Source: Oscillospiraceae bacterium (GTDB lineage: Bacteria > Bacillota > Clostridia > Oscillospirales > Oscillospiraceae). Taken from it: a stretch of 64,000 bases of DNA. Position 1 is the first letter of the stretch; each line of letters opens with the position of its first letter. Positions 3,187-27,425 of the stretch are shown here, piece after piece. The notes under the pieces are model-generated. The model was not told where the DNA came from. It was given only the letters and a program-made list of their open reading frames with translations, and made no database searches. The position numbers and the translations under genes were made by a program. Location: positions 16,055 through 80,054 of the forward strand of contig SVMF01000013.1 in the NCBI GenBank assembly GCA_015067565.1, read 5' to 3'.

Positions 3187-3203
3187 TCCACCATATACGA
3201 AAA

Positions 3204-3233
3204 CTCCCACAGGAAGCATGCTTCCTGTGGGAG
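3204..3233. terminator. perfect 30-bp palindrome, probable bidirectional terminator
   Basis: CTCCCACAGGAAGC-AT-GCTTCCTGTGGGAG followed by a T-rich run; downstream of the leftward lysis genes. Confidence 0.75.
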
Positions 3234-3241
3234 CTCATTTT

Positions 3242-3979: not shown

Positions 3980-3991
3980 AATAATTCCTCC

Positions 3992-4534: not shown

Positions 4535-4537
4535 GAG

Positions 4538-6862: not shown

Positions 6863-7016
6863 TCACCTCCTGCTGTATCAGATTTCTGTACTCCTCATCG
6901 GAGATCAGGTAGAATTCGTCAGCATTTCTGCCGACCTCAAGAAAGACCTTCTTGGCATAAAGGGTGCCATCGGTCAACCACATCCCACTGGGAGCGATCA
7001 TAGGTTCTCTTATCAT
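6837..7016 (-). CDS. small phage hypothetical protein
   Basis: MIREPMIAPSGMWLTDGTLYAKKVFLEVGRNADEFYLISDEEYRNLIQQEVNADGGSEA; tightly packed between neighbours. Confidence 0.5.
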   Translation of the reverse strand: MIREPMIAPSGMWLTDGTLYAKKVFLEVGRNADEFYLISDEEYRNLIQQEVNADGGSEA

Positions 7017-7027
7017 GTTCGTCCTCC

Positions 7028-8838: not shown

Positions 8839-8907
8839 TTACATCACATCCTTTGCCATAGCATAGCACAAAGAGGGAGGATTTCTAAATCCCCCCTCTC
8901 GTCGTTT

Positions 8908-11900: not shown

Positions 11901-12039
11901 TTGAATGAGGAGCGAAGCTACCAAGTTGGTCACCCATAGGCGCATCCATTGCAGGAGTGCCACTCATCTGCAGATCACCTCCCTGCATCTTGTCATCTTT
12001 TCCACGCAGCCTATCACGCATTGCGCTGAATATCGACAT
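8908..12039 (-). CDS. chimeric ORF: portal-like N-terminus (~175 aa) fused in frame to the C-terminus of a giant phage polyvalent/internal virion protein
   Basis: Residues ~75-175 (RNEQWYKLRHWEYLRS...VEPVSAWLFNSIANKHADAMDNFPAPNILPREKNDVQEAKTLSSVMPVLLQQCDFEQVYSDAWDDKLK) look portal-like; from FIFNRSETFKKHKF on the sequence resembles giant phage polyvalent proteins. Confidence 0.65.
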   Translation of the reverse strand: MSIFSAMRDRLRGKDDKMQGGDLQMSGTPAMDAPMGDQLGSFAPHSKGNFEAAQEVIGQKQVQEAYQILQKYKAGKANLEQRLIRNEQWYKLRHWEYLRSKEEGEQVEPVSAWLFNSIANKHADAMDNFPAPNILPREKNDVQEAKTLSSVMPVLLQQCDFEQVYSDAWDDKLKGGFIFNRSETFKKHKFDMARIANQSETYRVDIDLLSRIIETLTPEQKAYAEAMQEYLSQMGKKGNEVSRAMYGVDLFNEKFYFPLRSAQDFLDSAQTELQKAQTTASLKNTGMAKETVPHASNPIVLSNFDDVWLEHVNKMSTYHAFVLPIENLSKVFNYTENSNEVQELSMKLTLGGAFGNGAVKYLQKYIEDLNGGVMGGEQGRMMSWFSKFKKTAVGASLSTAIQQPTAILRAMAHIRPDYFVPFLRSGKEKTTESMNLYNELKQYAPIAIVKEMGGFDVGSNRQTKDYIGITEYEGVGGKFKGFFTDKAYRSKATDDAFMYLASKGDVLGWTAIWSAVKKEVASKEGDFESTEAYLKRCGERFTEVVALTQVYDSVNAKSGLMRSKSELNKFATSFMGEPTTSINMLFDAILQAKRGGSKGHAARVVASVFVSTVAAAAAASVIYANRDDDDDESWTEKWAEQFGGKLSSELNVLNMIPYVRDIMSMVEGWDVTRPDMEVISNIISAYDNLGSDKVTTWKKIENFAGSFAAAFGLPVKNLMKDARGIYNVYIAATDDIEPQGVLDAFVRGFNGEEQSKSEKLYEAMIRGDKGRLAALRENYKSDSAFVNAVRSALKEHDPRIKEAATARMNGDISTYTGLVKAITAEDCFTQDDVVAAIKSQMSAIENDKNGDGEATPSKPSMFDAEDYMAAVLDEPATAEEVKSYIIQRYVEKGKSAEEANSSFYSDVRSVIGEMYRQSIIGDDTAMSYLVSYGGHSEDEAYWQLDKWDYSNANGSAEGYSKYDDFYAAVQSGKNLKQAIKTYTDRGVKKGTLASQITSYFKPLYLEMTGYERAAIKGYLLNAYVALGYDRSKKSKDIDRWLED

Positions 12040-13450
12040 TGGAAATCATCTCCATTCTCGGCCTTTTCGTGGCCGGCAAAATATCCGTTTTCGGAATATC
12101 GAGGAACAAGCTCCTCGGATCGGTATCGTAATCGTCAGGCGCAGGGGCGATTCTCGGCTTGATTGGCCTCGACATCAGGAAATATCGCACCTCGTCAGCA
12201 ACATGGTCCTCCCCAGCCGTGTCCAGATCTTCAGGTTTGTGCTCGTCATACATCAATAGCGGCATCGTGCGGATAAACGCCTTGCAGTTGCTGAAAATAT
12301 ACATCATCGGAAATCCGTTCGGGTCAAATTGAAGCCGATAGTGAACTTGCATCCAGCCGGGGATGCGTTTGTGATCGCCCTTTTGGAAGAACACCTGATG
12401 TTTTGCCGCAACATCGGCAATGCTCTCACCGGTCTCAGCATCCCAAATGGCAGGATCGGCAACACCGCTGATCTTTTTTCCTTTGAGTAACGGATGCTCC
12501 GTTTCGATGCGGTGAATTTCCGCAAACACCTGCGGAGGGGTCCATTTCACTCCCTCATTTGGCGTTTTCGTGCAGCCGTAAAGCTCCAATATGCGGTAAA
12601 CGACGCCCTCATAATCGACAGCCCACCAGCCACAGGAAAACGGCTTGTTGTAGCCCCAGTCGAACGATCTGTATATCTTCCACGCAGGGTCGATGGCAAA
12701 GGGATCTATCACATGGCTCCATTGCCTGTCTGCATAGTGTTCGGGTCTGTCAAAGAAATCTTCAAAGAACTGTCCCTCAAACACATTCCAGTCACCTTCC
12801 AGCCATGCTTTTCTGAGCTTCGGTGGCAGAGCTTCGAGCTGTTTGACATAGTCGGGCTGACATTCGAGCAGGATGTGGTTGTCCTGCACACGGCTCTGAA
12901 TGAATTCGTATTCCTGCGGATCTTCTCCGACTTCATACTTGCGGTCGATGAAGATGCGCTTGATGTAGTGATGCCCCTGCCCACCGGGGTTGCAGGTGTA
13001 GTAAATGCGTTTCGGAAAATCGTTGACACCGCGCAAGCATGCGGTGATGGTTTTCATCTGATATTCCGAAAGCTGTGTTGCCTCGTCGAGAAAGATCACA
13101 TCGTATTCCACACCCTGCAAGCGGTCTAAGTCGCCGTCTTTTGCACAGTAGGTAAAGTTGATGCTTGAGCCGTTGGCAAATTTGAGCACCTTGTCTTTGT
13201 CGTTGTAACGGGCAATGTTCAAAAGCTCTGCTTTGAGGATGTTGATGTGATTGTTGATCAGCTCGGGATAGGTGCGGCGCACGATCAGGATGCGGATCCC
13301 CTTGTAGCGCAGGGCAAGTAGTTTTGCCTTTGTGCGAACACTCCAGCTCTTGCCGCCGCCACGGGCACCACCGAAGCCAATGTGTTTTTTGTTCGCTTTT
13401 AGAAACTCCTTTTGTTTTGGCTGCGCCTCGGGAATAAATAGCTTTTTCAT
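12014..13450 (-). CDS. phage terminase large subunit
   Basis: KEFLKANKKHIGFGGARGGGKSWSVRTKAKLLAL...ILIVRRTYPELINNHI...YDVIFLDEATQLSE...RIYYTCNPGG: Walker A/B and terminase motifs. Confidence 0.93.
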   Translation of the reverse strand: MKKLFIPEAQPKQKEFLKANKKHIGFGGARGGGKSWSVRTKAKLLALRYKGIRILIVRRTYPELINNHINILKAELLNIARYNDKDKVLKFANGSSINFTYCAKDGDLDRLQGVEYDVIFLDEATQLSEYQMKTITACLRGVNDFPKRIYYTCNPGGQGHHYIKRIFIDRKYEVGEDPQEYEFIQSRVQDNHILLECQPDYVKQLEALPPKLRKAWLEGDWNVFEGQFFEDFFDRPEHYADRQWSHVIDPFAIDPAWKIYRSFDWGYNKPFSCGWWAVDYEGVVYRILELYGCTKTPNEGVKWTPPQVFAEIHRIETEHPLLKGKKISGVADPAIWDAETGESIADVAAKHQVFFQKGDHKRIPGWMQVHYRLQFDPNGFPMMYIFSNCKAFIRTMPLLMYDEHKPEDLDTAGEDHVADEVRYFLMSRPIKPRIAPAPDDYDTDPRSLFLDIPKTDILPATKRPRMEMISNVDIQRNA

Positions 13451-14034
13451 TGGCTGAACTCCTCAGCATTGCCGCCGAAAATAACCTCGATCTGCTTGTC
13501 ATCGTCCTGCGAAGCGGCGTGCTTTTGCAGATTGGCAATTCTCGCCTCCTGCTCTTTACGGTCGAGCTCCGAACGGAGCATTTGAACCTCTTTGAGATCC
13601 TTGAGGGCCGAAGCGATCTGCTTTAACCCCTGACGGTCAATGATCGACGTCATGCTCTGCACCGTCTCCTTCTCGCGTATAACCTCTTTGGTTGGCTTGT
13701 TCGGTCTTTCGGCGTTGTTGTATTCAATTTCCTTGACTTTTTCACTTTCTCGGACGATCTGAATGTCCAGTTCCTCCACAGCTCTCTCCAGCTTCTGCAG
13801 CAGCCTTTCCGCCACAGCATCAAAACGAGCCATTTTTTGAGCCTGTTTCGAAGCGATTTTGTCCAGTGCTTTTGACAGCGTTTTGTCCCGATGCTGTTTT
13901 CTCATCGCAGGCCACTGCTCCGCTTTCCCCCGATTGGCAACCAATGTGCGGTTTAGCCCGTATTTTTCAGCGAGCTTCCGATAGCTCGTGTCGGTCGTAA
14001 TGTATTCGGTTTTGATCTCATTCCAATCTGCCAC
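13447..14034 (-). CDS. phage terminase small subunit
   Basis: N-terminal HTH MADWNEIKTEYITTDTSYRKLAEKYGLNRTLVANRGKAEQWPAMRKQHR; 4-bp overlap with the large subunit. Confidence 0.75.
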   Translation of the reverse strand: MADWNEIKTEYITTDTSYRKLAEKYGLNRTLVANRGKAEQWPAMRKQHRDKTLSKALDKIASKQAQKMARFDAVAERLLQKLERAVEELDIQIVRESEKVKEIEYNNAERPNKPTKEVIREKETVQSMTSIIDRQGLKQIASALKDLKEVQMLRSELDRKEQEARIANLQKHAASQDDDKQIEVIFGGNAEEFSQ

Positions 14035-14078
14035 AAACTACTCAGCCCCCTTTCTCGTCAGTCCAAGCTCTCCCTATC

Positions 14079-14196
14079 ATGTCATTGCACCCGCAAGGGG
14101 TAGACCGCATCCGTAGCGCTCCTTCGTCGCTGACGGCTGCGCACCGAGGCCGCCTTGCAGCCGTGACAATCTCAATCCACCGACTCGCGCCGTACC
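14079..14196. repeat. interspersed repeat family copy (TGTCATTGCAC..GTGACAATCTCA type)
   Basis: Shares GTCATTGCACCCGCAAGGGGTAGaCCGCATCCG with 21829-21890 and an ATTG..GTGnCAATCTCA pattern with 14571-14612. Confidence 0.6.
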
Positions 14197-14294
14197 CCCT
14201 ACGTTGTCATTGCAGAAGTTTCCGTTCCACGCACCAAATTTCACCCCCATCATACACCCTCACCCCTCAAAAATTAAATCCCCCCCTCTTCGTC

Positions 14295-14332
14295 GGTGCA
14301 AGCTTCATATTTTTCGCTTCGCTGCAAGCAGC
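14295..14332 (+). repeat. 38-bp direct repeat copy 1
   Basis: GGTGCAAGCTTCATATTTTTCGCTTCGCTGCAAGCAGC; near identical at 14409-14446. Confidence 0.85.
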
Positions 14333-14408
14333 AAAGCTCAGTCATTACGCTGCACCTCCTCTCCGAAATGCATCCACTGTGTTGGGATGCCTTTCGGTTT
14401 TTCTTTTT

Positions 14409-14446
14409 GGTGCAAGCTCCATATTTTTCGCTTCGCTGCAAGCAGC
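14409..14446 (+). repeat. 38-bp direct repeat copy 2
   Basis: GGTGCAAGCTCCATATTTTTCGCTTCGCTGCAAGCAGC; one mismatch to 14295-14332. Confidence 0.85.
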
Positions 14447-14570
14447 CATTGAACATTTCCTTGCACCGCACGCATCAAAGCCTTCCCCTTGAGGGGAAGG
14501 TGGCACGGCGCAAGCCGTGACGGATGAGGTGTCCGTGCAGGAACTACCTGTGGTCGCCATGCAGCTCCCT

Positions 14571-14612
14571 AACATGTCATTGCGAGGCCGCCTTGCGGCC
14601 GTGGCAATCTCA
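14571..14612. repeat. interspersed repeat copy (TGTCATTGCGAGGCCGCCTTGCGGCCGTGGCAATCTCA)
   Basis: Palindromic core GGCCGCCTTGCGGCC; same family as 14079-14196 and 21829-21890. Confidence 0.6.
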
Positions 14613-14682
14613 AACCGCCAATCACCTCCGCACTCACATAAAAAACGGCTCCCACCCGATTTCTCGGGCAGAAGCCGTACGC

Positions 14683-14916
14683 CTATTCATATTTCTTCGC
14701 CAACATCATCGCAATCGGACATTGCTCCCAATTTTTGCAGCAGCAAAACCGTTGCTTAAAGTCCGTTTTTCGTTCCTGCGAGCCAAAGAACTGCGCAAGA
14801 TTTGATCCTTCTTCGACCCCTTCGCAAAACAGTCGCATCGAATCTTCCTTGCGATAAAACGGGCATTGCGCATATTTCGAAACATACTGTTTCACTCTCG
14901 GCACCTCCAAATTCAA
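14683..14916 (-). CDS. phage Cys-rich hypothetical protein
   Basis: MNLEVPRVKQYVSKYAQCPFYRKEDSMRLFCEGV...CCCKNWEQCPIAMM. Confidence 0.55.
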   Translation of the reverse strand: MNLEVPRVKQYVSKYAQCPFYRKEDSMRLFCEGVEEGSNLAQFFGSQERKTDFKQRFCCCKNWEQCPIAMMLAKKYE

Positions 14917-15122
14917 ATCAAATCAAACATCGAAAACAAATGCGGCTCCTCCGTTTCAAAATCTTTCAGATACCCGACCGCATCTCGGAAATAGTCGTTG
15001 TTGAGCTCAATGGTATATCCCTTACGCCCTGCTTTCATCGCTTGCAGCGCAACAGTACCCAAACCGCCGAAGGGATCCAATACCAAATCACCCTCGTTGC
15101 TGTAGCGGTTGATCAGCCTCAT
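14913..15122 (-). pseudogene. C-terminal fragment of a phage DNA methyltransferase
   Basis: INRYSNEGDLVLDPFGGLGTVALQAMKAGRKGYTIELNNDYF: SAM-binding motif of adenine/N4-cytosine methyltransferases; the catalytic DPPY half is missing. Confidence 0.65.
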
Positions 15123-15508
15123 TACTCTCCACCTCCGATCAATTCGGGATTGTCGTGGATGTTGCCGATGACTTCTAAATCAGTTCCATTGATGTTCGAA
15201 TGGAAATCAACACAAAATCCATCTGCTTCAACCTGAAAACCGCCATCGTCATAAGCAACAATTCCGATTTCCTCATCTTCTGTGAGAATATCAACAATAT
15301 CCCCCTCAAAAATCTTATTTCCGTTCTTGTCGGTCAAGCCTGTATACTGACCGACAGAAGCAGGATTAACAATCGTTTTTGTCATTTCCACAAAGCTATC
15401 GTTCTCTGAATAGCAGATATCGGTAGCTCCGTCAGGCCACACAACCAGCGAACCTTCAACCCATTCGCCGTTATTCCGCTTTCCACGAAACAAAATCTCA
15501 CGCATCAT
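15122..15508 (-). CDS. YopX family phage protein
   Basis: MREILFRGKRNNGEWVEGSLVVW...VNPASVGQYTGLTDKNGNKIFEGDIVDI...EVIGNIHDNPEL. Confidence 0.88.
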   Translation of the reverse strand: MMREILFRGKRNNGEWVEGSLVVWPDGATDICYSENDSFVEMTKTIVNPASVGQYTGLTDKNGNKIFEGDIVDILTEDEEIGIVAYDDGGFQVEADGFCVDFHSNINGTDLEVIGNIHDNPELIGGGE

Positions 15509-15782
15509 CGGTTCTCCTTTCTCCGTATGAACAGAAATCGTCCAGTTTAGGTTCGTTGTCAGGGTGTGATGTATCAATCGCACAGCCGCACCAGCTACCA
15601 TCATTATTAGGTGCATACCACTGGCAATCCTTGCACCGAACCACAGGCACGGCATCCACGGTGGGCAATTTAGCTAATTCATCAGCCGCTGCAAAAAGGC
15701 CAAAAGAAAATGTAGTCGGATATTTTGCTACACATTTGCCTCTCAGAAGCTTAATTGCTTCATCCAAATCAATCAGCCTCAT
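15498..15782 (-). CDS. phage hypothetical protein, Zn-binding cysteines
   Basis: MRLIDLDEAIKLLRGKC...LPTVDAVPVVRCKDCQWYAPNNDGSWCGC. Confidence 0.6.
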   Translation of the reverse strand: MRLIDLDEAIKLLRGKCVAKYPTTFSFGLFAAADELAKLPTVDAVPVVRCKDCQWYAPNNDGSWCGCAIDTSHPDNEPKLDDFCSYGERRTDDA

Positions 15783-15963
15783 TTTGTACCTCCTTGAAGT
15801 ACGGACACGGAGTATTTGCTTTGACGATCAGGCAGAAGCATTTTCCGTCGCCGTTCTTGTTGTCGCAAATGCCGCATTCGCCGCCGCAAACAGCTTGACA
15901 CCAGTTGTAAAAGTCATACTTGCAGGCTTGACATAAATCCTTGCTCTTGATCGGTATGCTCAT
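15769..15963 (-). CDS. Cys-rich phage hypothetical protein
   Basis: MSIPIKSKDLCQACKYDFYNWCQAVCGGECGICDNKNGDGKCFCLI. Confidence 0.5.
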   Translation of the reverse strand: MSIPIKSKDLCQACKYDFYNWCQAVCGGECGICDNKNGDGKCFCLIVKANTPCPYFKEVQNEAD

Positions 15964-16682
15964 TCTTCCCCCTCCTGCAAAGCCGCTTGAATGGCTTTTC
16001 TTTCGAGGTCTGACAGCTCGCCGTCATGCGACTGATACTGCGCCGCCTTGTTTGCCCGACTGTTTCGGCTGCATTGTCCGTCCTCCTGCCACCAGCGGAT
16101 GATTGTGCCATAATGGTCGTACACCTTGGCACCCGTCCTGGAAATAAAATCGCTCAGTCTTTCCACATAGCGGTAGAAAGCCGTCTGTCCCATTTGTCGG
16201 ATCAAAATGTCGACCTCATATTCGTCCAGAAACACATTTTTACTCTCGCCTAGTGCGAGCAACGGGGAAGCACTCCCCTCACCATCAACATCAGTATCAT
16301 TATCAATATCAGTATTAGCCTTTTCCTTTACCTCTACATCCCTTGCGTTTTCCCCTTGCTTCGGTTTTGCTTTCGGTTTGCTTGCGTTTTGCTTTCCGTT
16401 TGCTTTGCCCCCCTGCTTGCCGCTGGCAGCTTTTTTTCTGCCCGAATCCAAGGTCGGTCGAATGAGCTCAAATGCAGTCGTAGCAGGGGCGGACAGCCCT
16501 TTCGGCTCCGTCTCGTAAAGCGCATACTCGCACACGGCAAGAATGATCGCAGCACGATCTCTTTTGTTCAGATTCTGTATCGCATCGAAATACGAACGAT
16601 AGAATGTAAATTGGTTTCTCACCTCTGCCAAAGCCGTTTCCTCACTTTCCGCAAGCTGTAACACGCACGTGTTTTGGCACAA
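15960..16682 (-). CDS. phage replication-associated protein (DUF6291-like N-terminus)
   Basis: RNQFTFYRSYFDAIQNLNKRDRAAIILAVCEYALYETEPKGLSAPATTAFELIRPTLDSGRKKAASGKQGGKAN; true start may lie 3' of the first ATG. Confidence 0.6.
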   Translation of the reverse strand: MCQNTCVLQLAESEETALAEVRNQFTFYRSYFDAIQNLNKRDRAAIILAVCEYALYETEPKGLSAPATTAFELIRPTLDSGRKKAASGKQGGKANGKQNASKPKAKPKQGENARDVEVKEKANTDIDNDTDVDGEGSASPLLALGESKNVFLDEYEVDILIRQMGQTAFYRYVERLSDFISRTGAKVYDHYGTIIRWWQEDGQCSRNSRANKAAQYQSHDGELSDLERKAIQAALQEGEE

Positions 16683-17340
16683 CTCGCATCACTTTGTAGA
16701 TAAAATTGCCTTCGTGACTGGTCGCATCGGACAGATGCAGAAGAAAAATCTCTCTGCATTTTTCCAAATCCAACCGCTTCAGATATTCGCACAACCGCCT
16801 GATTTCCATGTGGCTGTTTTCGATTCTGTGCCTGGTTTTCTCGGGCATACGCTCCGACCGAGATAAAATATCGGCATCGTAATTGCTCTCAATAGCAAGC
16901 ATCGTCAGCTCCTCAAATTGGTAGCCCAAATTGACCGTATCGGTCGCAAAAGCGAGGCTTTCTCCGTCAACCCGGCTCTTGATGTAGAAGCCTAACGGCT
17001 CTTGTGCATCGTGGAAGGTCTCAAACGGCACGATGTCCATCGTCCCGACCGAAAACTGCCGCCTTGCCTCGATCACTTCCACCCCGTCAAGCTCCAACGC
17101 CTGCGCCGTACCCTCGCTCATAAACACCGTCAGACCACTTTTAATGAGCTCCTGCACGCACTTCGAGTGATCCTTGTGTTCGTGGCTCAGAAGGCAAGCA
17201 TCGATCTCAGAGAGCTGAAAATCGAGTTTCTTTTGCAGTGTCCGAAAGGCCAGCCCACATTCCAAAAGTATTCTCGTTTGACCGTCAGAAACGGCATAAC
17301 AATTACCAGCCGAACTACTTGCATACGAATAGAATTCCAT
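16642..17340 (-). CDS. MBL-fold metallo-hydrolase (phage)
   Basis: MEFYSYASSSAGNCYAVSDGQTRILLECGLAFRTLQKKL...LLSHEHKDHSK. Confidence 0.88.
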   Translation of the reverse strand: MEFYSYASSSAGNCYAVSDGQTRILLECGLAFRTLQKKLDFQLSEIDACLLSHEHKDHSKCVQELIKSGLTVFMSEGTAQALELDGVEVIEARRQFSVGTMDIVPFETFHDAQEPLGFYIKSRVDGESLAFATDTVNLGYQFEELTMLAIESNYDADILSRSERMPEKTRHRIENSHMEIRRLCEYLKRLDLEKCREIFLLHLSDATSHEGNFIYKVMRVVPKHVRVTACGK

Positions 17341-17860
17341 TTTTCTTTCGCCTCCGATCGTCTATAGCTTTTCGGATATTCTCCTCCATCGTGATCCACT
17401 GGCAGTTGGAAGGCTCATAATTTCCATCGACATTGATTCGGTCAATGGTAAGGTCATCCGTATAGCCATTAGCCATGGCCCACTCGTAGAAGGGTGGGAA
17501 CTGATGCCATTCCTCGCAAACCGAAATACCACGACCTCCATATGCCATATAGCAGATATCTTTTTTCCTTCTACAACGGTTAAGCATACCCTGCCAAATC
17601 CCATATAATCTTGGATTCGCCTTTTTCAGACCGTGCTTAACACTGGGTTTGTTTTTTCGCATGAGCTCTACTACCAAACAACCGCATGACGTTGATCGAC
17701 CAGAGCGCAAATTGTAGCCATTCACGCTCTTAATTGTTCCGCAATTGCACACGCAAAACCAGTTTGCATCTCCACTACTTGTAGTATGGTCAAACCACAA
17801 AACCTTCCAACGCCCAAATGTTTTCCCTGTTAAGTCGATGCGTTGGCTCATATTGGACAA
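17315..17860 (-). CDS. AP2/HNH-type (homing-like) endonuclease
   Basis: LTGKTFGRWKVLWF...CNCGTIKSVNGYNLRSGRSTSCGCL; C-term RLYGIWQGMLNRC...YGGRGISVCEEW...LTIDRINVDGNYEPSNCQWIT. Confidence 0.8.
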   Translation of the reverse strand: MSNMSQRIDLTGKTFGRWKVLWFDHTTSSGDANWFCVCNCGTIKSVNGYNLRSGRSTSCGCLVVELMRKNKPSVKHGLKKANPRLYGIWQGMLNRCRRKKDICYMAYGGRGISVCEEWHQFPPFYEWAMANGYTDDLTIDRINVDGNYEPSNCQWITMEENIRKAIDDRRRKKNGILFVCK

Positions 17861-18546
17861 GCCTCTTTACTCATAGGCACACCTTGCGCAGGCACTCCTT
17901 GCACCGCCGTAGTGGCAGATACCATCTTCCCGTTTGCAGACGCTGCGGCAACATCCGCACCTCCAATCGGCTGCACCCCGATCTTGTCCGTCGGAGCATG
18001 TTCCTTCTGCCATTCAGACGACTTCTTGATACGCTCCTGCGCCCATTCGGGAAGAGCCTCAAACGCTTTCTGATCCCACGGCTCCATGTCGAAACGCATG
18101 AGCGGCAATGTCGCCTGCGGCGTCGGAAATCCTGCCGGGATCTGCATGATGCTCTCAATGTTGGCATATTCGCCTGTTTCATTCAGCACAACGTTCAGCA
18201 TCGCAGGCTTGCCGACGAGATCATTGGTGTCGAGTTCTAAAAACTCATCGTCCGTGTATTCCTTCGCATCCCATGCGCTGACAAACTTGCGCAGAGCGGA
18301 GTTTTTGCTCTTGGCAATGTTGAAGGTTCTTCCCAAAGTTCTCGGCTCTTCCTTGCCGTCGATCTGAGCGGTAACGCCCATCAGCTCAAAGCCAAGCATC
18401 ACCTGATTGTTGTAGCTCTTTCCCTTGTCCTTGTATTCGCAAAGCTGCTCGCCGATCGCAATGGAATACACGCAAACGGCAAGATATGTGCCACCGGGAA
18501 CAGGCGGCAAACTCGGCTTGACGCCGCTTTTAATTTTCATATTCAC
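17848..18546 (-). CDS. DUF669-like phage recombination/ssDNA-binding protein
   Basis: PVPGGTYLAVCVYSIAIGEQLCEYKDKGKSYNNQVMLGFEL; next to the recombination ATPase. Confidence 0.6.
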   Translation of the reverse strand: MNMKIKSGVKPSLPPVPGGTYLAVCVYSIAIGEQLCEYKDKGKSYNNQVMLGFELMGVTAQIDGKEEPRTLGRTFNIAKSKNSALRKFVSAWDAKEYTDDEFLELDTNDLVGKPAMLNVVLNETGEYANIESIMQIPAGFPTPQATLPLMRFDMEPWDQKAFEALPEWAQERIKKSSEWQKEHAPTDKIGVQPIGGADVAAASANGKMVSATTAVQGVPAQGVPMSKEACPI

Positions 18547-20455
18547 ACCTCAGTTCCTTATCCTGCTCCGATACCACCAGGCGAATGACCTGCGTGTCGG
18601 AGTATTCAAGCCTTGTCACGCTCTCTGCATTGTCGATAAACAGCGGCACCTGCACGCCGTAGTAATTCGAAAGCGTATTGATGATGTCAATGCCGACATT
18701 GATCTTTGCACCGGAGTTCACCGATGCGTAGGGAATGCCGTCAAATACCACGTCACACCGTTCCTCCACGCCGCCGTTGGCCTGCTCTCGGAACAGGCGG
18801 AAACGGGCAATGCGGAACAGGCTGTTGATCGTGTCTTCGACAAAGCCCATTTTGTATCGTGTAAAATCCTCGATCAGCCAAAGAAGCTTGTCCAGCTTCT
18901 CCATCTGTGCCGAAGCCGCAGCCGATTCCTCACGCAAGCGTGAGATCTTCTCTCTTACGCTGCTGAGCGTGTCTTCCTTACCGACCGTGATCTGCTGCGT
19001 TGCAATCGCCGCATTGATCTCCTGCAGGGAGCTTCGAAGCTGACCTTCCACGGCTCTGCTGTCACCCTTGATCTTGAGGATCTGACGAGCAATCTCCTCT
19101 TCCTGCTCACAAAGAGCTTTTTTGTGCTCGGCAAAGCCCTCCATTGGCACGATCTGCGGCACAGCCTGCATCGTCCTACCGATCTCGGCAATTTCGTTTT
19201 CGATCTGCATATTTCTTGCTTGCAGATGTTCTGCACGCTCCTGAAGACGCAGCTTCATTGCCTTTTCGCTGTTGGCCGTGCGCTCGATTTCTTCCAGGCG
19301 ATCCTTTTTCCATTCCTCAAAGCGTTCGTTTGCAGCTGCAAGCTGCTCCATGGGCAAATCCTGGCCGCAGGTCGGACACTTGCCGCCTTCGAACACCTCA
19401 CCCTGCACGTTGATCCAACGCCTGCGGGCATCCTCAACCGACCGCTCAGCACCACTGATCGCATTTTGCTTCTCGGCAATCTCTCTGAGGTTTGCAGCAA
19501 GCTCTGCCTCCAACGCTCTTTTTTTCGCTTCGAGTGCGCTGATATTCGGAAGGCCTTCCCTCTGCTCGGCCATAAATGCCTGATTTTCACGCTCCAGCTC
19601 TGCAATCTGCATACGCACGGAAAGGAGCTCTTTTTCCTGCTCGGTTACAGCGCTCTCGTTCTGCAAGGCGGTGATCTGCCCCAAAACAGACTCTTTTTTC
19701 GCATCAAGCGAAGTAATCTCCGATTTTGCCGCGGCAAAATCAAGTCCGCTCAATTCTCGTTCCATTTCCTGCAATGCAGAAATCTTTGCGGGATTTTCGT
19801 CACGAACGCTCAAATAACCCTTCCTCTCTGCGCTGACCTTCTTTTTCAGCTCATCACAGCTCAGATGGCCGCAAGCTTCAAAAAGCGGCAAAAAGCGTTC
19901 TTCCGTCTGCAAGATGGATTTTTCCGACATCGTACCCGAGATTTCAAACAGGAGCTTTCTGCGGCTCTTCCAGTCCATCTCGGAAGAGAAATATGTAATG
20001 CTCGTCAGCACACGGAAGATCTCTTCTTCAACAACTTCCCCAATGCGGCGGTCGTATTCAAATTTCTTGCACGGCACACCGTCAACAAAATAGTCGCTCG
20101 TGTTTCCGTCATAGGTCAGCTCAAGCGAGCCTCTCTTCGAGCTCCAGATCTCACGCAGCGTGCGTTTGATGCTCATGCTCTGATCATCGACCTGCAGTAC
20201 CGCCTCGACACTTGTGATCGCCTCGTGATCCCTGACATTGCCGTTTTGGTCCAAGGGCTTGATGTCGATGCTCTTCTCGCCGTTACCCTTGCTGTCCTTG
20301 CCAAACAGAAGCCATGTCAGCGCATCATAGACCGTCGTCTTGCCGACGGCATTGTTTCCATAGAGGGAAGCAGATTTCCCCATAAAATCAAGCTGCAAAT
20401 GCGTGTGGCATTTGAAGTTTTCCAAACGCATCGACAGAATTTTCACTTTTTTCAT
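18530..20455 (-). CDS. AAA ATPase, SbcC/Rad50-like with zinc-hook motif
   Basis: ENFKCHTHLQLDFMGKSASLYGNNAVGKTTVYDALTWLLFGKDSKGN; coiled coil with CPTCGQDLP; C-terminal GAKINVGIDIINTLS. Confidence 0.85.
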   Translation of the reverse strand: MKKVKILSMRLENFKCHTHLQLDFMGKSASLYGNNAVGKTTVYDALTWLLFGKDSKGNGEKSIDIKPLDQNGNVRDHEAITSVEAVLQVDDQSMSIKRTLREIWSSKRGSLELTYDGNTSDYFVDGVPCKKFEYDRRIGEVVEEEIFRVLTSITYFSSEMDWKSRRKLLFEISGTMSEKSILQTEERFLPLFEACGHLSCDELKKKVSAERKGYLSVRDENPAKISALQEMERELSGLDFAAAKSEITSLDAKKESVLGQITALQNESAVTEQEKELLSVRMQIAELERENQAFMAEQREGLPNISALEAKKRALEAELAANLREIAEKQNAISGAERSVEDARRRWINVQGEVFEGGKCPTCGQDLPMEQLAAANERFEEWKKDRLEEIERTANSEKAMKLRLQERAEHLQARNMQIENEIAEIGRTMQAVPQIVPMEGFAEHKKALCEQEEEIARQILKIKGDSRAVEGQLRSSLQEINAAIATQQITVGKEDTLSSVREKISRLREESAAASAQMEKLDKLLWLIEDFTRYKMGFVEDTINSLFRIARFRLFREQANGGVEERCDVVFDGIPYASVNSGAKINVGIDIINTLSNYYGVQVPLFIDNAESVTRLEYSDTQVIRLVVSEQDKELRCEYEN

Positions 20456-20594
20456 TGATTATTCCTCCAAAGTATGATATATTGAAGGCGGTCCTACCAA
20501 CCGCTTTTCCGTCTGGTGATCTTCCCCATCACCGGGCGGATTTTTCTATTGATTTTTGCAAGAAACTGTGCTATATTGAAAATAGAGTTGTTCG

Positions 20595-20714
20595 TTACTG
20601 CTCTACCTCATGCTCCTGCTGATCTTCCACATCGGCAGGAGCATTTTCTTCGCAGTTGCAGATCTCTTCCGGGTCCAGAGACGCGCCGCAATCGGGGCAA
20701 ATACGGTAGTACAT
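20595..20714 (-). CDS. 39-aa Cys-rich phage protein
   Basis: MYYRICPDCGASLDPEEICNCEENAPADVEDQQEHEVEQ*; SD-like GGAGGC upstream. Confidence 0.55.
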   Translation of the reverse strand: MYYRICPDCGASLDPEEICNCEENAPADVEDQQEHEVEQ

Positions 20715-20727
20715 TCTGTTGCCTCCT

Positions 20728-21123
20728 TTATGTTTGTGCTCCGCGCAGATTGCGGATGACCTTACTTATACTGCACGGAATCAAGCCCCGTTCCCAGTTC
20801 GAAACGGTTGCCGCCGACACGTGCAAAATACTCGCCGCAGTTCGCAGTGACAGCCCCAGTTCCTTACGAAGCTCTTTGATTTTCTTCTGCTGAGCTGCGA
20901 GCTTCTCCCGGTTGGCTTCACGGTACGCCTTCTGCTGAGCTGCAACCTTCTCCCGGTTGGCTTCACGGTACGCCTTCTGCTGAGCTGCGAGCTTCTTGCT
21001 CTTCGGCGTTGAGCGCAATGCCTTGTCACGCTTTGATGCTTCTATGTAGTCCTCGTGGTCCATCTGATCGTTGATACAGTCAGGATACGGACAATGGAAG
21101 CAGTCCTTATCGCAGATGCTCAT
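20728..21123 (-). CDS. XRE-like HTH protein with internal tandem repeats
   Basis: KLAAQQKAYREANREKVAAQQKAYREANREKLAAQQKK then HTH KELRKELGLSLRTAASILHVSAATVSNWERGLIP. Confidence 0.65.
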   Translation of the reverse strand: MSICDKDCFHCPYPDCINDQMDHEDYIEASKRDKALRSTPKSKKLAAQQKAYREANREKVAAQQKAYREANREKLAAQQKKIKELRKELGLSLRTAASILHVSAATVSNWERGLIPCSISKVIRNLRGAQT

Positions 21124-21461
21124 GCTTCCAACCTCCTCAGCTTCAGCGCACATAGCGATAAAAACTCCGAGTTCCTGTAGCGTCCGGTCCGAACATTGAC
21201 CTCAAGACCAAGCAATTGGATGATTCTGTCATAATCCTGATAATCGAACATCACCTCGACCGCATGACGAATCGCCCTTTCCACACGGCTTGCCGTACTC
21301 CCCATCCGTTTTGCAACCTCAGGATAGAGCCGTTTTGTAATCTGATCCATTACATTCGGGTATTCCAAAATGATCTCAATGGCACAGACACCAGCCTGAA
21401 AGCCTTTCAAACACGGTGGGATGCCGAGCGAAAGAAACAGCTTTGCAATTTTTTCCCGCAT
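21120..21461 (-). CDS. stand-alone Spo0A C-terminal-domain protein
   Basis: GFQAGVCAIEIILEYPNVMDQITKRLYPEVAKRMGSTASRVERAIRHAVEV: Spo0A effector-domain pattern; no receiver domain. Confidence 0.85.
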   Translation of the reverse strand: MREKIAKLFLSLGIPPCLKGFQAGVCAIEIILEYPNVMDQITKRLYPEVAKRMGSTASRVERAIRHAVEVMFDYQDYDRIIQLLGLEVNVRTGRYRNSEFLSLCALKLRRLEA

Positions 21462-21781
21462 CAGATCCACCCCGCCCTTCTCATCACAGCCATCATACCC
21501 ACCGTCGGCAGAACCGCCGTCCATATGGGAGCGGCAAGAATGCAGACGGCCGAAACAACCATGCAGCTCACGACGCCAACAAAGGCAACCATGCCGTCAA
21601 GCTCTTTGCGTGCGGCACGTCGTTCTTCTCTGCGATAAGCCTCGCTTAATTGCAGCTTAGCCTCCGCAATTGCAAGTCTCCGTGCATTCTCCCTGGCCTC
21701 ACTCCTTGCCGAAAGCATCTGCCAAAAAAGTTCATCGTTCAGATCCGCTGCCCTCTCCGGCAGCATTTTTTGTTTTTTCAT
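21461..21781 (-). CDS. phage hypothetical membrane protein
   Basis: Charged helical N-terminus and C-terminal hydrophobic segment VAFVGVVSCMVVSAVCILAAPIWTAVL. Confidence 0.5.
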   Translation of the reverse strand: MKKQKMLPERAADLNDELFWQMLSARSEARENARRLAIAEAKLQLSEAYRREERRAARKELDGMVAFVGVVSCMVVSAVCILAAPIWTAVLPTVGMMAVMRRAGWI

Positions 21782-21828
21782 AACAACCTCCATATGTTTT
21801 TTTATTCTTTATCTGCACCCCTTGCCCT

Positions 21829-21890
21829 GTCATTGCACCCGCAAGGGGTAGGCCGCATCCGCAAAGCGAAGCGACGTGGCAATCTCAGTC
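21829..21890. repeat. interspersed repeat family copy
   Basis: TGTCATTGCACCCGCAAGGGGTAGGCCGCATCCG...GTGGCAATCTCAGTCC; related to 14079-14196. Confidence 0.6.
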
Positions 21891-21906
21891 CAGCGTCATT
21901 GTGCAC

Positions 21907-22104
21907 TCAGTCCCACTTACGAACCGTCGAAACAAAATCCTTGTATACAAGCTTCTGTTTGCCCTCGGTCTCGATCACAATCACATGATCATCAAAATCA
22001 ACGATCTTACCGACCATTCCATAGCCGTTTCGCAGATAAACCGCAACCTGGCATCCCTGCGCTCTGAACTGCTTCAAGAACGCACTTTCCAATCTGTTGT
22101 CCAT
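21907..22104 (-). CDS. phage-encoded Hfq-like (Sm-fold) RNA chaperone
   Basis: MDNRLESAFLKQFRAQGCQVAVYLRNGYGMVGKIVDFDDHVIVIETEGKQKLVYKDFVSTVRKWD aligns by eye with bacterial Hfq; strong SD (AAAGGAGG). Confidence 0.8.
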   Translation of the reverse strand: MDNRLESAFLKQFRAQGCQVAVYLRNGYGMVGKIVDFDDHVIVIETEGKQKLVYKDFVSTVRKWD

Positions 22105-22172
22105 AGGTATAATCCTCCTTTCTCAGCAAATGTGTTATGCAAAACCGCATGGTATTGCTAATGTCACCCTGC

Positions 22173-22331
22173 TCAAACGCGCGCCCTTTCTTGCGATATT
22201 CCGTTTTCTGCATCAGCATTCTCCTTAGGTACAGCACTCAAAGTAATCTTTGCGCCATGCTTTTCGCTCAATATCTCTGACAACACCGCCATAAGTCGAT
22301 TTACATTCAAACGATTTCCCGTTTGCTCCAT
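22173..22331 (-). CDS. small phage hypothetical protein
   Basis: MEQTGNRLNVNRLMAVLSEILSEKHGAKITLSAVPKENADAENGISQERARV preceded by AAAGGTGGTGA. Confidence 0.45.
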   Translation of the reverse strand: MEQTGNRLNVNRLMAVLSEILSEKHGAKITLSAVPKENADAENGISQERARV

Positions 22332-22414
22332 TTTTTCACCACCTTTCAACAAAACTTCGACTACAGTCCCATATATCGGACAGTGAATATGTATAATGGA
22401 ACTGTCAACGGACC

Positions 22415-22618
22415 TCAATTCGCTGAACTCACATTGCAAAGAACATCAACAGAAACATGAAAATAATTTGCAATCTTCTGCATTTTTACCGCAGACAACG
22501 TCTTTGACCGCCCGTGCTTCAGATCAGATATAAGCCCTTGCCGCAGGCCTAAGTCCTTGCACATCTGTGCAACGCTGATTTGTTTTTCCTCGCATAATGC
22601 TTTGATAATGTTGTACAC
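22415..22618 (-). CDS. XRE family HTH regulator
   Basis: YNIIKALCEEKQISVAQMCKDLGLRQGLISDLKHGRSKTLSAVKMQKIANYFHVSVDVL; GTG start at 22618 assumed. Confidence 0.75.
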   Translation of the reverse strand: MYNIIKALCEEKQISVAQMCKDLGLRQGLISDLKHGRSKTLSAVKMQKIANYFHVSVDVLCNVSSAN

Positions 22619-22647
22619 GCTTGCGCATTCACCCCTTTCTCTACATT

Positions 22648-22857
22648 TCAATTCGCAACACGTTCTTCATGATTTGCGAGAAGATAATCGATAGAGCAAT
22701 CAAACAGCTCAGACATTTTCACAAGTGCAGACTGAGGAATGTTCCCGCAATTACACCAGTTATAGAAAGTCTTACGAGTTACCCCCAAAGTTGTAGCAAG
22801 CACCTCTGCACTCATGCCCTTTCTGGCACGTTCAGCTTCGATGTTTGGATATCTCAT
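22648..22857 (-). CDS. XRE family HTH regulator (Cro-like position)
   Basis: RYPNIEAERARKGMSAEVLATTLGVTRKTFYNWCNCGNIPQSALVKMSELFDCSIDYLL. Confidence 0.8.
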   Translation of the reverse strand: MRYPNIEAERARKGMSAEVLATTLGVTRKTFYNWCNCGNIPQSALVKMSELFDCSIDYLLANHEERVAN

Positions 22858-22896
22858 TGTTCCACCTCCTTGTTATTCATTTCGGGTACACCACGG

Positions 22897-22925
22897 ATTA
22901 TATACTCGTTTTGAGTATATGTCAA
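22897..22925 (-). promoter_or_regulatory. consensus early leftward promoter with palindromic operator in its spacer
   Basis: Minus strand TTGACA-17 nt-TATAAT; perfect inverted repeat TATACTC-GTTTT-GAGTATA at 22901-22919. Confidence 0.85.
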
Positions 22926-22989
22926 GTCAAAAATTACCCAAAATGCATAGATCATTTTTGTAGATTTTACCCAAATTGCGTTTTTCTTA

Positions 22990-23017
22990 TTGACAAATTA
23001 CCCGTCCTGTGTAATAA
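22990..23017 (+). promoter_or_regulatory. promoter for the repressor/immA genes
   Basis: TTGACA (22990-22995), 16 nt, TAATAA (23012-23017); ATG at 23037; TTACCC motifs nearby. Confidence 0.7.
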
Positions 23018-23036
23018 TAAGGTAGGGTGATACTAA

Positions 23037-23384
23037 ATGAACAAAATGAACGAACTCCGCAAGAAAATGGGAATCAGCATGAGAGAAGCGGCGAGCAGAC
23101 TCTCCATGCCATATACCACCTATGTCAACTACGAAAAAGGTGCGCGAGAGCCAAATTCTGAAACGCTGATTCTCATAGCACGTTTTTTCGGAGTTACAAT
23201 CGACTATCTTTTAGGCAAAGAAACAAAAACGCCCACCACAGAAGGTGAGCGTCCGATCAATGATAACGATATTAAATTTGCCCTCTTTGGAGGCGAAGGT
23301 GAGATCACCGATGCCATGTATGAAGAAGTGCGGCAGTTTGCCGAATTTGTCAAGAACCGGGAGGCGCAAAAGAAGAAGGAGTAG
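23037..23384 (+). CDS. CI-like XRE repressor
   Basis: MNELRKKMGISMREAASRLSMPYTTYVNYEKGAREPNSETLILIARFFGVTIDYLLGK. Confidence 0.85.
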   Translation: MNKMNELRKKMGISMREAASRLSMPYTTYVNYEKGAREPNSETLILIARFFGVTIDYLLGKETKTPTTEGERPINDNDIKFALFGGEGEITDAMYEEVRQFAEFVKNREAQKKKE

Positions 23385-23386
23385 CG

Positions 23387-23818
23387 ATGAAAAGTATTCT
23401 ATCGCTTTATCAGTATGCAGAAAAACAGAATATTGAAGTATTGTCGTTTCCTCTGCCCGAAACAAGCTCCATGTCAATTATGACCGACAGTGGCGATTGT
23501 TATATCGGCATTGACGATAGCAAGAAAGACGGTGAATCCTTAGAGCGTGTCCACCTTGCGCACGAGATCGGGCATTGCGTGACCGGTGCATTTTATAACC
23601 GTTATTCCACTGCTGATATGCGTCAACGCCACGAGAATAAAGCAGATAAATGGGCGATCCGCAAACTGATCCCGATAGCAAGGCTCGATGCCGCCATCGC
23701 AGATGGCCATACCGACCTGTGGGATCTTGCAGATCACTTCGGTGTCACCGAAGACTTCATCCGCAAGGCCGTCTGCTACTATACCCACGGCAACTTGGCC
23801 ACTGAGGTGTACTATTAA
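23387..23818 (+). CDS. ImmA/IrrE family metallopeptidase
   Basis: HLAHEIGHCVTGAFYN...ENKADKWAIRKLIP; HEIGH motif; adjacent to the repressor. Confidence 0.88.
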   Translation: MKSILSLYQYAEKQNIEVLSFPLPETSSMSIMTDSGDCYIGIDDSKKDGESLERVHLAHEIGHCVTGAFYNRYSTADMRQRHENKADKWAIRKLIPIARLDAAIADGHTDLWDLADHFGVTEDFIRKAVCYYTHGNLATEVYY

Positions 23819-24058
23819 CAGACATACAGATACCACAAGCTATACCATATCGCATATCTCTATTGCAAAAGTAGCAAGGTAATCAATCCGGACGGTCGAT
23901 CTTTCTGCAGAGAAGATTTAATTAAGAACATATTAGACACCAAGCAGATTCAGATATCATCGCTATAAAGTCCATCGAACTTTATCCGCGCAGCAACTAA
24001 GTTGTAGCGAACCATCTTCCGCTTTAACAGAGAATCATACAGAAAGGATGATAGTGCA

Positions 24059-24373
24059 ATGAATGACAGCAACAAAAACAGACCCCTGTCGCTTGCCGAA
24101 AAGAATGTCGCCTCACACCAAAAGGAAAGCCATTATTTCAAAATACTGTTGATCGTAGGCGGCGTCATTCTGATCATAGTTCAAATTTTGTCCTATTTCG
24201 GTTCTGCTAAGAGAGCAGAGCTGCAGGGTATTCAGCATGAAACAACATTCACATTCAATTCTACGGGCATTGCCAGCCTCATAGGCTCCAACATTTTCGG
24301 ACTGGCAGGCATCATTTCCGTCGTCCTTGGAATCGTAGGTCTCATTCGGCAAAAGAAACAGCCAAAGCAGTAA
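24059..24373 (+). CDS. two-TM membrane protein in the lysogeny region
   Basis: YFKILLIVGGVILIIVQILSYFG and GLAGIISVVLGIVGLIRQKK. Confidence 0.6.
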   Translation: MNDSNKNRPLSLAEKNVASHQKESHYFKILLIVGGVILIIVQILSYFGSAKRAELQGIQHETTFTFNSTGIASLIGSNIFGLAGIISVVLGIVGLIRQKKQPKQ

Positions 24374-24406
24374 AAGCTTCATATGCAACGCAAAATAGCA
24401 AAAAAA

Positions 24407-24435
24407 GACCGCCCCTGCGCCAACAGGAAGCGGTC
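24407..24435. terminator. hairpin terminator
   Basis: GACCGC-CCCTGCGCCAACAGGAA-GCGGTC preceded by an A-run. Confidence 0.45.
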
Positions 24436-24554
24436 GTGTAGAAAATCACCGTCAAATACAAAGGGATATATCTACCCTTTTATGCTATCACATGAAAGGA
24501 AAAAAGTCAAATGAAATACACATATTATTCTGCAAATAGACGGAGTATGGCACC

Positions 24555-25931
24555 ATGAGCGGCGTACTCAGAGTTGCCCTTTATCCGAGAGTGTCCACGG
24601 AGGAACAGGTGCTAAAGGGCTACAGCCTTGAAGCACAAGAAGAAGCGCTTGTCAGCTATGCCGAAGAAAAAGGCTATAAAATAGTCGGAATATATCGTGA
24701 CGAAGGCTTCAGCGCACGCAAGTCTGCAATGAAACGAAAGGTCATGCAAGAGCTTCTTATTGATGTAAAGGCCGGCAAGATCGACCGTATTTTGTTCATC
24801 AAATTAGACAGATGGTTCCGCAATGTGCGTGAATATCATAAAGTACAAGCAATTCTTGACGAGCATAATGTGACATGGGAAGCCACGATGGAGGATTACA
24901 ACACCTCTACCGCCGACGGCCGCTTGAAGGTCAATATCATGCTGTCAGTCGCAGAGAACGAATCCGACCGCACAAGCGAACGCATCAAATTTGTTTTTGA
25001 GGCCAAGCGCAGGAGGAAAGAATACTGTTTTACGGGTAAGATCAAGCCTTTTGGTTATACCGCTGAGATCATAGACGGCGTAAAGCGATGCGTTAAGGAT
25101 CCTCAAACCGAGCATATCGTAAATGACTTTTGGGACTATGTACTCAAATACAACAGCATCCGCAAAGCCGGAATGTATTGCAACGAAAAATACGGCATCA
25201 ACCGCCACTATCGCACATGGATACAAATGTCTAACAACGAACTATATACCGGCACTTACAGAGGCGTTGAGGAGTATTGCCCTGCCTATATCAGCCACAA
25301 GGATTGGGAATATGTCACGCAATCGCATGTTATGATCAAGAAAACGCAGAAACCAGAACGGATCTATCTATTCACAGGCATGCTGCGCTGCCCTGACTGT
25401 GGTAACACACTGAAAGGGACATTCAAAACCTATCCGAGCGACCGAAGCAGGGAATATCTTAGTTACCGTTGCAACAACGGAAGATTGCGAATGTGCCCTT
25501 ACCGTGGAACCCCTTCGGAGAAAAAACTTGAAAAGTATCTACTGGAAAACACAAGATACGAATTAGAACGATTTATCGTAAATGTGGACATCCAAGAGCA
25601 AAAAAAGAAAGCACAGCCACGGCTTCACGACATTGTCGCCCTATCAGAGCAGCTCCGCCGTCTGAATGTGATCTATATCGCCGGTAACATTTCAGACGAG
25701 GAGTATACCGCCGAATCCAAGCGACTCCGTTCAGAGATAGACGTTGCAAGGAATGTGGACGAAGAAGCCGCCCCCATTGATATAGATCACCTAAAAACCT
25801 TCCTTCTCACGGATTTTGAAGGAATCTACGGAACACTATCAAAGGAAGACAAACGCAGAATGTGGCGTTCCGTGATCGAAGCCCTTTATATTGAACATAA
25901 TACCGTTAAATCTATCAAATTCCGCACATAA
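24555..25931 (+). CDS. large serine recombinase (integrase)
   Basis: VALYPRVSTEEQVLKGYSLEAQEEAL...DRILFIKLDRWFRNVREY...; recombinase domain; zinc ribbon CPDCGNTLKGTF...YRCNN. Confidence 0.96.
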   Translation: MSGVLRVALYPRVSTEEQVLKGYSLEAQEEALVSYAEEKGYKIVGIYRDEGFSARKSAMKRKVMQELLIDVKAGKIDRILFIKLDRWFRNVREYHKVQAILDEHNVTWEATMEDYNTSTADGRLKVNIMLSVAENESDRTSERIKFVFEAKRRRKEYCFTGKIKPFGYTAEIIDGVKRCVKDPQTEHIVNDFWDYVLKYNSIRKAGMYCNEKYGINRHYRTWIQMSNNELYTGTYRGVEEYCPAYISHKDWEYVTQSHVMIKKTQKPERIYLFTGMLRCPDCGNTLKGTFKTYPSDRSREYLSYRCNNGRLRMCPYRGTPSEKKLEKYLLENTRYELERFIVNVDIQEQKKKAQPRLHDIVALSEQLRRLNVIYIAGNISDEEYTAESKRLRSEIDVARNVDEEAAPIDIDHLKTFLLTDFEGIYGTLSKEDKRRMWRSVIEALYIEHNTVKSIKFRT

Positions 25932-25955
25932 GGAAATTCATAGGAGCATACGCGT

Positions 25956-26750
25956 ATGGAGAATAAGATCAGCGTATTAAAGAAATGGATCCAAGAAAGC
26001 AAGCGTGCCGTCTTTTTCGGCGGAGCCGGAGTAAGCACCGAATCCGGAATTAAAGATTTCCGTAGTCCGGATGGATTGTACAACGAAAAAACGTGGACTA
26101 ACGAACACATCTCTACCGAGAGCGGTATTCCCGATTTTAGAAGTGTTGACGGCCTTTATCATCAGAAATTTGAATATCCGCCCGAAGAAATTCTCAGTCG
26201 CAGCTTCTACCAAAAAAATCCTTCGTATTTTTTCCGCTTCTATCGAGAGAAGATGATTCCTCTGGGTTACGAGCCGAATGTCACGCACAAGGTCCTGGCT
26301 CGTCTGGAGCAGGAAGGTCACCTGGCAGCCGTTGTAACGCAGAACATCGATGGTCTGCACCAAAAGGCAGGCTCCAAAACCGTTTATGAGCTGCATGGAA
26401 GCGTGCTGCGCAACTACTGTGTCAGATGTAAAAAATTTCACGACGCAGAGTTTATCAAGCACTCCGAAGAGGTTCCTATGTGCGACTGCGGCGGCACGGT
26501 CAAGCCCGATGTCGTCTTGTACGAAGAGCCGCTTGACGGCGGTATTCTCATGGCAGCCGCGCAAGCCATCTCGCAGGCTGATCTGCTAATCGTCGGCGGC
26601 ACAAGCCTGACCGTCTACCCTGCCGCTGGTATGCTTCAGTATTACAACGGTGACCGCCTTGTTCTCATCAATCGAGAGGAAACTCCATATGACAAGTTTG
26701 CAAATCTGGTATTCCACGAGTCCTTAGGTTCTGTATTTTCTAAACTTTAG
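25956..26750 (+). CDS. chimeric NAD-dependent deacylase (sirtuin) with duplicated GAGxSTESGIxDFRS motif
   Basis: FFGGAGVSTESGIKDFRSPDGLYNEKTWTNEHISTESGIPDFRSVDGLYHQKFEYPPEE...VTQNIDGLHQKAG...ELHGSVLRNYCVRCKKFH...CDCGGTVKPDVVLYEE. Confidence 0.93.
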   Translation: MENKISVLKKWIQESKRAVFFGGAGVSTESGIKDFRSPDGLYNEKTWTNEHISTESGIPDFRSVDGLYHQKFEYPPEEILSRSFYQKNPSYFFRFYREKMIPLGYEPNVTHKVLARLEQEGHLAAVVTQNIDGLHQKAGSKTVYELHGSVLRNYCVRCKKFHDAEFIKHSEEVPMCDCGGTVKPDVVLYEEPLDGGILMAAAQAISQADLLIVGGTSLTVYPAAGMLQYYNGDRLVLINREETPYDKFANLVFHESLGSVFSKL

Positions 26751-26759
26751 GAGGAAAAT

Positions 26760-27425
26760 ATGAAGCATATTGCACATATTCACACCGATTTCCCGACAAA
26801 ATTCGGCATTCCTCGTCAAAGCGGCCTAGTCGAAGAGCTGACGGCAACCATCATCTTCGAGCCGGAATACCGCAATGCTGATGCGCTGCGCGGCTTGGAG
26901 GGGTTCTCGCATCTTTGGCTAATCTGGGAATTTTCCAAGGCAAAAAGAGAAACCTGGTCCCCCACCGTCAGGCCGCCCAGACTCGGCGGTAACCGCCGTT
27001 TGGGTGTCTTTGCGACTCGCTCTCCATTCCGCCCAAATCCTGTGGCGCTGTCCTGCGTAAAACTCGTGGACCTTCGTCAAACGGAAGAACATGGCACCGT
27101 ACTTGTCGTGTCGGGCGCTGATCTTATGGACGGAACTCCCATCTATGATATTAAGCCCTATATCCCCTATGCCGATGCCAAGCCCGATGCCGTGGGTGGG
27201 TTTACTGAGGACGCTGACGATTTTATTTTGACCGTAAACTTCCCAGAGGAGCTCCTTAAAAAAATTCCTGATGATCGCCGTGCCGCCCTGCTGGCCGTTT
27301 TGGCGCACGACCCAAGGCCATCGTATCAGGACGACCCTGAGCGTATCTATGGCATGGAATTTGCAGGACATGATGTCCGATTCCAGATAAATGAAAAGAC
27401 GCTAACCGTTTGCGAAGTTGAATAA
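26760..27425 (+). CDS. trmO: tRNA (N6-threonylcarbamoyladenosine37-N6)-methyltransferase TrmO
   Basis: AHIHTDFPTKFGIPRQSGLVEELTATIIFEPEYRNADALRGLEGFSHLWLIWEFS...NRRLGVFATRSPFRPNPVALS. Confidence 0.92.
   Translation: MKHIAHIHTDFPTKFGIPRQSGLVEELTATIIFEPEYRNADALRGLEGFSHLWLIWEFSKAKRETWSPTVRPPRLGGNRRLGVFATRSPFRPNPVALSCVKLVDLRQTEEHGTVLVVSGADLMDGTPIYDIKPYIPYADAKPDAVGGFTEDADDFILTVNFPEELLKKIPDDRRAALLAVLAHDPRPSYQDDPERIYGMEFAGHDVRFQINEKTLTVCEVE

Follow-up and report, generated by a model that had tools for sequence, protein, structure and literature searches.

Why would a bacterial sirtuin gene that has been interrupted by a prophage carry its own catalytic motif twice? This question is raised by a 64,000-nt stretch of DNA from an Oscillospiraceae bacterium (hereafter the window, i.e. 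the whole stretch, to whose positions all unprefixed coordinates refer). Open reading frame (ORF) reading and junction analysis showed that a host sirtuin gene is split in two here by a prophage encoding a large serine recombinase (LSR). GAGxSxxSGIPDFR is the signature by which sirtuins bind nicotinamide adenine dinucleotide (NAD). Whereas ordinary Sir2 deacylases contain it once, a chimeric ORF in the window (Table 1) starts in phage sequence and reads through STESGIKDFRSPDGLY and then STESGIPDFRSVDGLY, so that the NAD motif is partly doubled. With a probability of roughly 70%, we think that LSR elements rebuild the 5′ end of the sirtuin gene across their attachment site, that the linker between the motif copies is a translated arm of the phage attachment site (attP) and that the lysogen keeps an at least partly active sirtuin.

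The prophage splits the sirtuin gene and supplies a new 5′ end

The phage contributes a ribosome-binding site (RBS), an ATG and an N-terminus in frame with the host body, as an earlier sequence-only reading of the locus had claimed. The start codon lies 24 bp after the integrase stop, and the resulting N-terminus is 26 residues longer than the native one. That these 26 extra residues repeat the motif, another claim of that reading, was borne out, with one small correction: the crossover lies inside the STE codons, and the STES of both copies therefore cannot be given entirely to either partner. The host start was indeed found stranded at position 3097, at the head of a short stub. Searching the window's own genome, we found two pieces only of the split sirtuin, the stub and the chimera. 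Joining the flanks at the putative AC crossover core yielded an intact 235-aa sirtuin, which could be aligned to an uninterrupted relative over 234 aa with 0 gaps and 78.6% identity. According to this gapless alignment the stub is the true 5′ half of the gene and not an unrelated paralogue, and the claimed insertion of a prophage in a sirtuin gene holds. In family genome G031 we also noticed two further, distant sirtuin copies that adjoin each other (C12:67877-69160).

The linker corresponds to one arm of a palindromic attachment site

Both junctions were located in five genomes. There, attL runs on into (G/A)TTAGTCC and GG(A/C)CTAA(C/T) precedes attR, and these inverted arms lie 11-12 bases on either side of an AC common to both junctions. 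The arms match at 10 of 10 positions in three genomes and at 9 of 10 and 7 of 10 in the other two, with at most 5 of 10 at any other offset. In genome G243 one arm is changed and a matching change is present on the opposite side. The AC core was inferred from this symmetry and, with a spacing of 12/11 in three genomes, may be off by a base or two. Read as protein, the left arm gives TGG ACT AAC (W-T-N) in the window and TGG AGG CCT AAC (W-R-P-N) in L055. As the inverted repeats show at the nucleotide level, the linker between the motif copies corresponds in all five genomes to a translated attP arm: attP is palindromic, and its left arm is read as linker while the right one, its mirror image, stands in attL. 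The integrase would bind this arm within the linker, and we take GGACTAAC within the linker codons as the putative integrase site. After excision, the cassette in the phage would code for a peptide of 58 aa. Published LSR attP sites are pseudo-palindromic with 25-bp half-sites that differ from attB (PMC3783163), and the inverted arms observed here fit this description.

Chimeras of the same layout occur in other Clostridia

The sequence-only reading had suggested looking for other elements with the same 5′ cassette, and these were found: chimeric sirtuins of the same layout are present in eight genomes, the window's and seven other Clostridia, which puts the scar, as judged from sequence, in at least eight bacterial genomes. 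G243 was detected by a protein search of 401 family genomes and shows the layout of the window. Six more members came from a DNA pattern (two DFR motifs at the window's spacing) scanned over the GTDB genome collection, and all six are titled Oscillospiraceae, Clostridiales or Pseudoflavonifractor. The pattern is rare: among 401 family genomes the window's own and G243 alone carry it, and among 396 order genomes just the window's own, with no match in viral contigs. The duplication is not a feature of uninterrupted relatives, since G243 is itself interrupted and the motif occurs just once in each of the 29 intact sirtuins extracted from relatives (genus and family). A further chimera candidate, G184, proved on inspection to be an ordinary sirtuin.

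The integrase or its C-terminal end adjoins one junction in the five genomes with both junctions and is complete in the window, G436 and G437. In the latter two, the other junction is located on a separate contig, and the stub is followed by an integrase 65% identical to that of the window, with its 3′ end facing the stub. The contig of G435 ends inside the integrase C-terminus beside the stub. In G243 an integrase C-terminal remnant stands beside the stub of a 4-kb element; in this reduced element (L047:3194-7535), nothing but the integrase C-terminus and a single ORF of 1235 aa separates stub from chimera. That the G243 chimera has outlasted the decay of its element fits a useful gene. The genes 5′ of the cassette vary among the members, with tail-type genes recognized by eye in L053 and L055. 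Near the cassette, L094 and L092 have sigma-factor-like and anti-sigma-like ORFs in place of obvious phage structural genes and may represent another kind of mobile element.

The cassette is constrained and carries expression signals

Across the eight cassettes, the ratio of nonsynonymous to synonymous polymorphism (pN/pS) was 0.22 overall, with values of 0.15 in motif copy 1 and 0.45 in the linker; the host copy gave 0.06. These figures are approximate, as synonymous sites approach saturation. None of the eight cassettes contains an in-frame stop. The cassette is, by these measures, constrained at the protein level, and the earlier suggestion of selection to keep the ORF open agrees with a pN/pS of about 0.2.

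In the G436 cassette a TTGACA-17-TACTAT promoter, the RBS and the first codons closely match the host's own 5′ end, and promoter-like hexamers with 17-bp spacing occur at a constant distance from the start in six cassettes other than that of the window. Expression of the chimera from the RBS, and from the promoter-like hexamers in these six members, is plausible. Of the five stubs, the one that most resembles the first part of the window cassette is the window's own (78% over 18 residues), and this part has the genus-typical AVFFGGAG; the later part is closest to L054. For the G243 cassette, the most similar stub is that of another genome. In appearance, the cassette is a host-type 5′ end fused to a 3′ part specific to the element. 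When cassette distances were set against body distances, the eight sequences did not reveal independent histories.

Proposed explanation and alternatives

The Sir2 domain of the chimera keeps the catalytic His and the four Zn cysteines, and an AlphaFold model, as the sequence-only reading had suggested making, gives a confident Sir2 fold outside residues 33-69, with Sir2Tm as its best PDB match. Models built with 7 and with 33 sequences did not decide which motif copy is in use. We think it most likely that the chimera is expressed and has at least partial sirtuin activity.

We propose that LSR-encoding temperate phages and related elements of Clostridia find their attB in a conserved sirtuin gene, within the codons of its NAD motif (GAGVST/ES). 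Beside attP the element would carry a spare 5′ end comprising RBS, start, N-terminal helix, first strand and the NAD motif through DFRSxDGLY, to which a promoter-like element would be added in most members. Integration would then splice this cassette in frame to the host body, as can be read in the window and, by comparison, presumably in the seven other chimeras. Since the attP arm cannot become host-like, it would be translated as a linker, which would explain why any insertion exists. If the cassette ended at GAGVSTES, the linker would interrupt the NAD motif, separating the GAG loop from GIPDFRS; with cassettes that run through DFRSxDGLYxE, the repeat would put it after a complete motif instead, and copy 1 is therefore predicted to be the copy in use. 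One copy would thus serve, with the other copy and the linker looped out. The duplication seems to be what it costs to restore an ORF that spans an LSR site. The arrangement looks restorative, and abolished activity is not upheld as the default reading; activity may be altered, and expression may be under phage control.

Several observations weigh against this explanation. The AlphaFold model fails to place residues 33-69, including the doubled motif, and the K that replaces P in copy 1 of 7 of the 8 cassettes departs from the family consensus. Six of the eight members came from a search pattern that fixes the spacing, and only for the window and G243 does equal insertion length count as independent evidence. 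Individual promoter scores are mostly not beyond those of shuffles and no clear promoter was found before the cassette in the window, where integrase and cassette are on the same side, unlike in the other four genomes; the window cassette may be transcribed from the integrase gene.

Integration might instead amount to an effective sirtuin knock-out that is useful or neutral to the phage, the chimera being inactive or dominant-negative and its open frame incidental. The insertion does lie in the cofactor loop adjoining the NAD motif and is predicted to be disordered. However, the frame is open in every one of the eight chimeras and the cassette shows constraint on its protein sequence, although a dominant-negative protein would be constrained too, and for a knock-out it would make no sense to carry a start, an RBS and a promoter-like element; we regard this account as unlikely. 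That the chimera has changed properties or expression from which the prophage benefits, with the duplication selected for function and not merely tolerated, would suit the element-specific K of copy 1 and the close succession of integrase gene and chimera ORF in the window. Yet the attP arm accounts for the linker without any need of function, and the linker is the least constrained part, which leaves this account improbable. We likewise find it doubtful that the cassette makes a distinct lysogen-specific sirtuin with changed NAD affinity or substrates, replaced by the native form on excision and selected for altering an NAD-dependent host process to the benefit of the prophage. An error of assembly, or an ordinary tandem duplication that has nothing to do with integration, has only the repeat itself in its favor and is hardly credible, as the arrangement recurs with stub, integrase and mirror-image att arms in independent genomes, including G243 (a 3.2-Mb single contig) and a member whose record is named as a strain, Pseudoflavonifractor sp. 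MSJ-30 (L055).

Prophage, integrase relatives and neighboring genes

The prophage, bounded by the putative AC cores, is of tailed-phage type according to PHROGs, with terminase subunits, a portal-like fusion, tail fibre, endolysin, repressors, a metalloprotease and the LSR integrase, which combines a Resolvase catalytic domain with a recombinase zinc ribbon. A 1043-aa protein encoded at 8908-12039 resembles a portal protein over a short stretch and matches a 3513-position PHROG of unknown function over a long one. The integrase is located on the cassette side of attP in the window (24555-26116 region) and on the stub side, facing the stub, in L089, L090, L091 and L047; the cassette-attP block seems to be inverted relative to the integrase in the window compared with these four genomes. 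When viral and genome collections were searched for exact peptides of the integrase, no relatives came up, because true relatives are just 65% identical. Integrases 34-52% identical, from family genomes, phage records and viral contigs, were rejected as sirtuin-site relatives, as none adjoins a sirtuin within reach of the flanks. One of the viral-contig integrases (L095:6001-7356), 52% identical to that of the window, ends beside the 3′ end of a gene at 7356-7528, whose translation looks like a Spo0A C-terminus, and L037 appears similar; relatives of the window integrase may, from these neighbors, target spo0A.

Table 1. Features of the split sirtuin locus and the prophage in the window
Feature	Position	Strand	Basis or remark
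trmD (tRNA m1G methyltransferase), host	2367..3125	+	Pfam tRNA_m1G_MT 3.2e-60; 3′ end overlaps native sirtuin start
Stranded native sirtuin 5′ end, 29 aa, MISTLKKWINESQSAVFFGGAGVSTESSS*	3097..3186	+	runs into phage DNA, then stop
Inferred AC crossover core, attL	3169..3170	+	symmetry centre of attP arms; common to both junctions
Prophage, 22,946 bp	3171..26116	.	PHROGs; junction coordinates
attP right arm GTTAGTCCAC, in attL	3182..3191	+	perfect inverted match to 26093-26102
Large serine recombinase (integrase), 458 aa	24555..25931	+	Pfam Resolvase 9.6e-29, Zn_ribbon_recom 2e-8; PHROG integrase 1.6e-95
AGGAG, RBS-like, phage-supplied	25942..25946	+	sequence
Chimeric sirtuin ORF, 264 aa	25956..26750	+	Pfam SIR2 6.7e-55
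Phage-borne 5′ cassette up to inferred core	25956..26116	+	
Motif copy 1, STESGIKDFRSPDGLY, phage	26034..26081	+	
Linker codons NEKTWTNEHI	26082..26111	+	overlapping attP left arm
attP left arm GTGGACTAAC, in attR	26093..26102	+	translated in chimera
Motif copy 2, STESGIPDFRSVDGLY, host from core onward	26112..26159	+	
Inferred AC crossover core, attR	26115..26116	+	symmetry centre of attP arms; common to both junctions
trmO-like host gene, 3′ of chimera	26760..27425	+	Pfam TrmO_N 1.4e-46

Relation to known systems and implications

SXT is a conjugative element with a tyrosine integrase, and A118 merely interrupts comK. Replacement of the 5′ end of a target gene was known before from tyrosine-recombinase elements: IMEVchUSA3 in dusA provides a promoter and an N-terminus of the same length, with expression shown (PMC8409611), and SXT does likewise in prfC, according to a passage of the same article that cites Hochhut and Waldor 1999. 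The effect of such a replacement on protein activity is stated there to be unknown. The elements described here resemble those of dusA and prfC in their insertion in the 5′ part of a host coding gene, the stub at the other junction and the new in-frame start. In contrast, dusA islands and prophages (PMC4482086; IMEVchUSA3, PMC8409611) use tyrosine recombinases, restore an N-terminus of identical length without insertion or motif repeat and have another target gene, as has the integrative and conjugative element SXT with prfC. With the A118-type large serine integrases (PMC3783163) the window shares an integrase with Resolvase and zinc-ribbon domains and a pseudo-palindromic attP with half-sites unlike attB, but here the attP arm is in frame and translated. 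The chimera has the Sir2 fold of Sir2Tm and related Sir2 deacylases (PDB 1yc5, 2h59; 34-36% identity), which lack its 26-aa insertion and the second NAD motif therein. The literature searches made brought up no paper describing an attachment site in a sirtuin gene, and sirtuins are not mentioned in the main text of a large LSR survey (PMC10083194). Within these searches, an LSR case that combines a repeated motif with translation of an attP arm is new.

Because a serine integrase requires an attP arm that differs from attB, an ORF rebuilt across its site should keep foreign codons. In these sirtuins the putative recombinase binding site would be translated into the rebuilt enzyme, and the repeat of the catalytic motif would shift the scar to a position that tolerates it better. 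The eight natural chimeras make the insertion tolerance of the sirtuin NAD loop testable, and a motif repeat around an att palindrome may serve as a signature for seeking other such cases.
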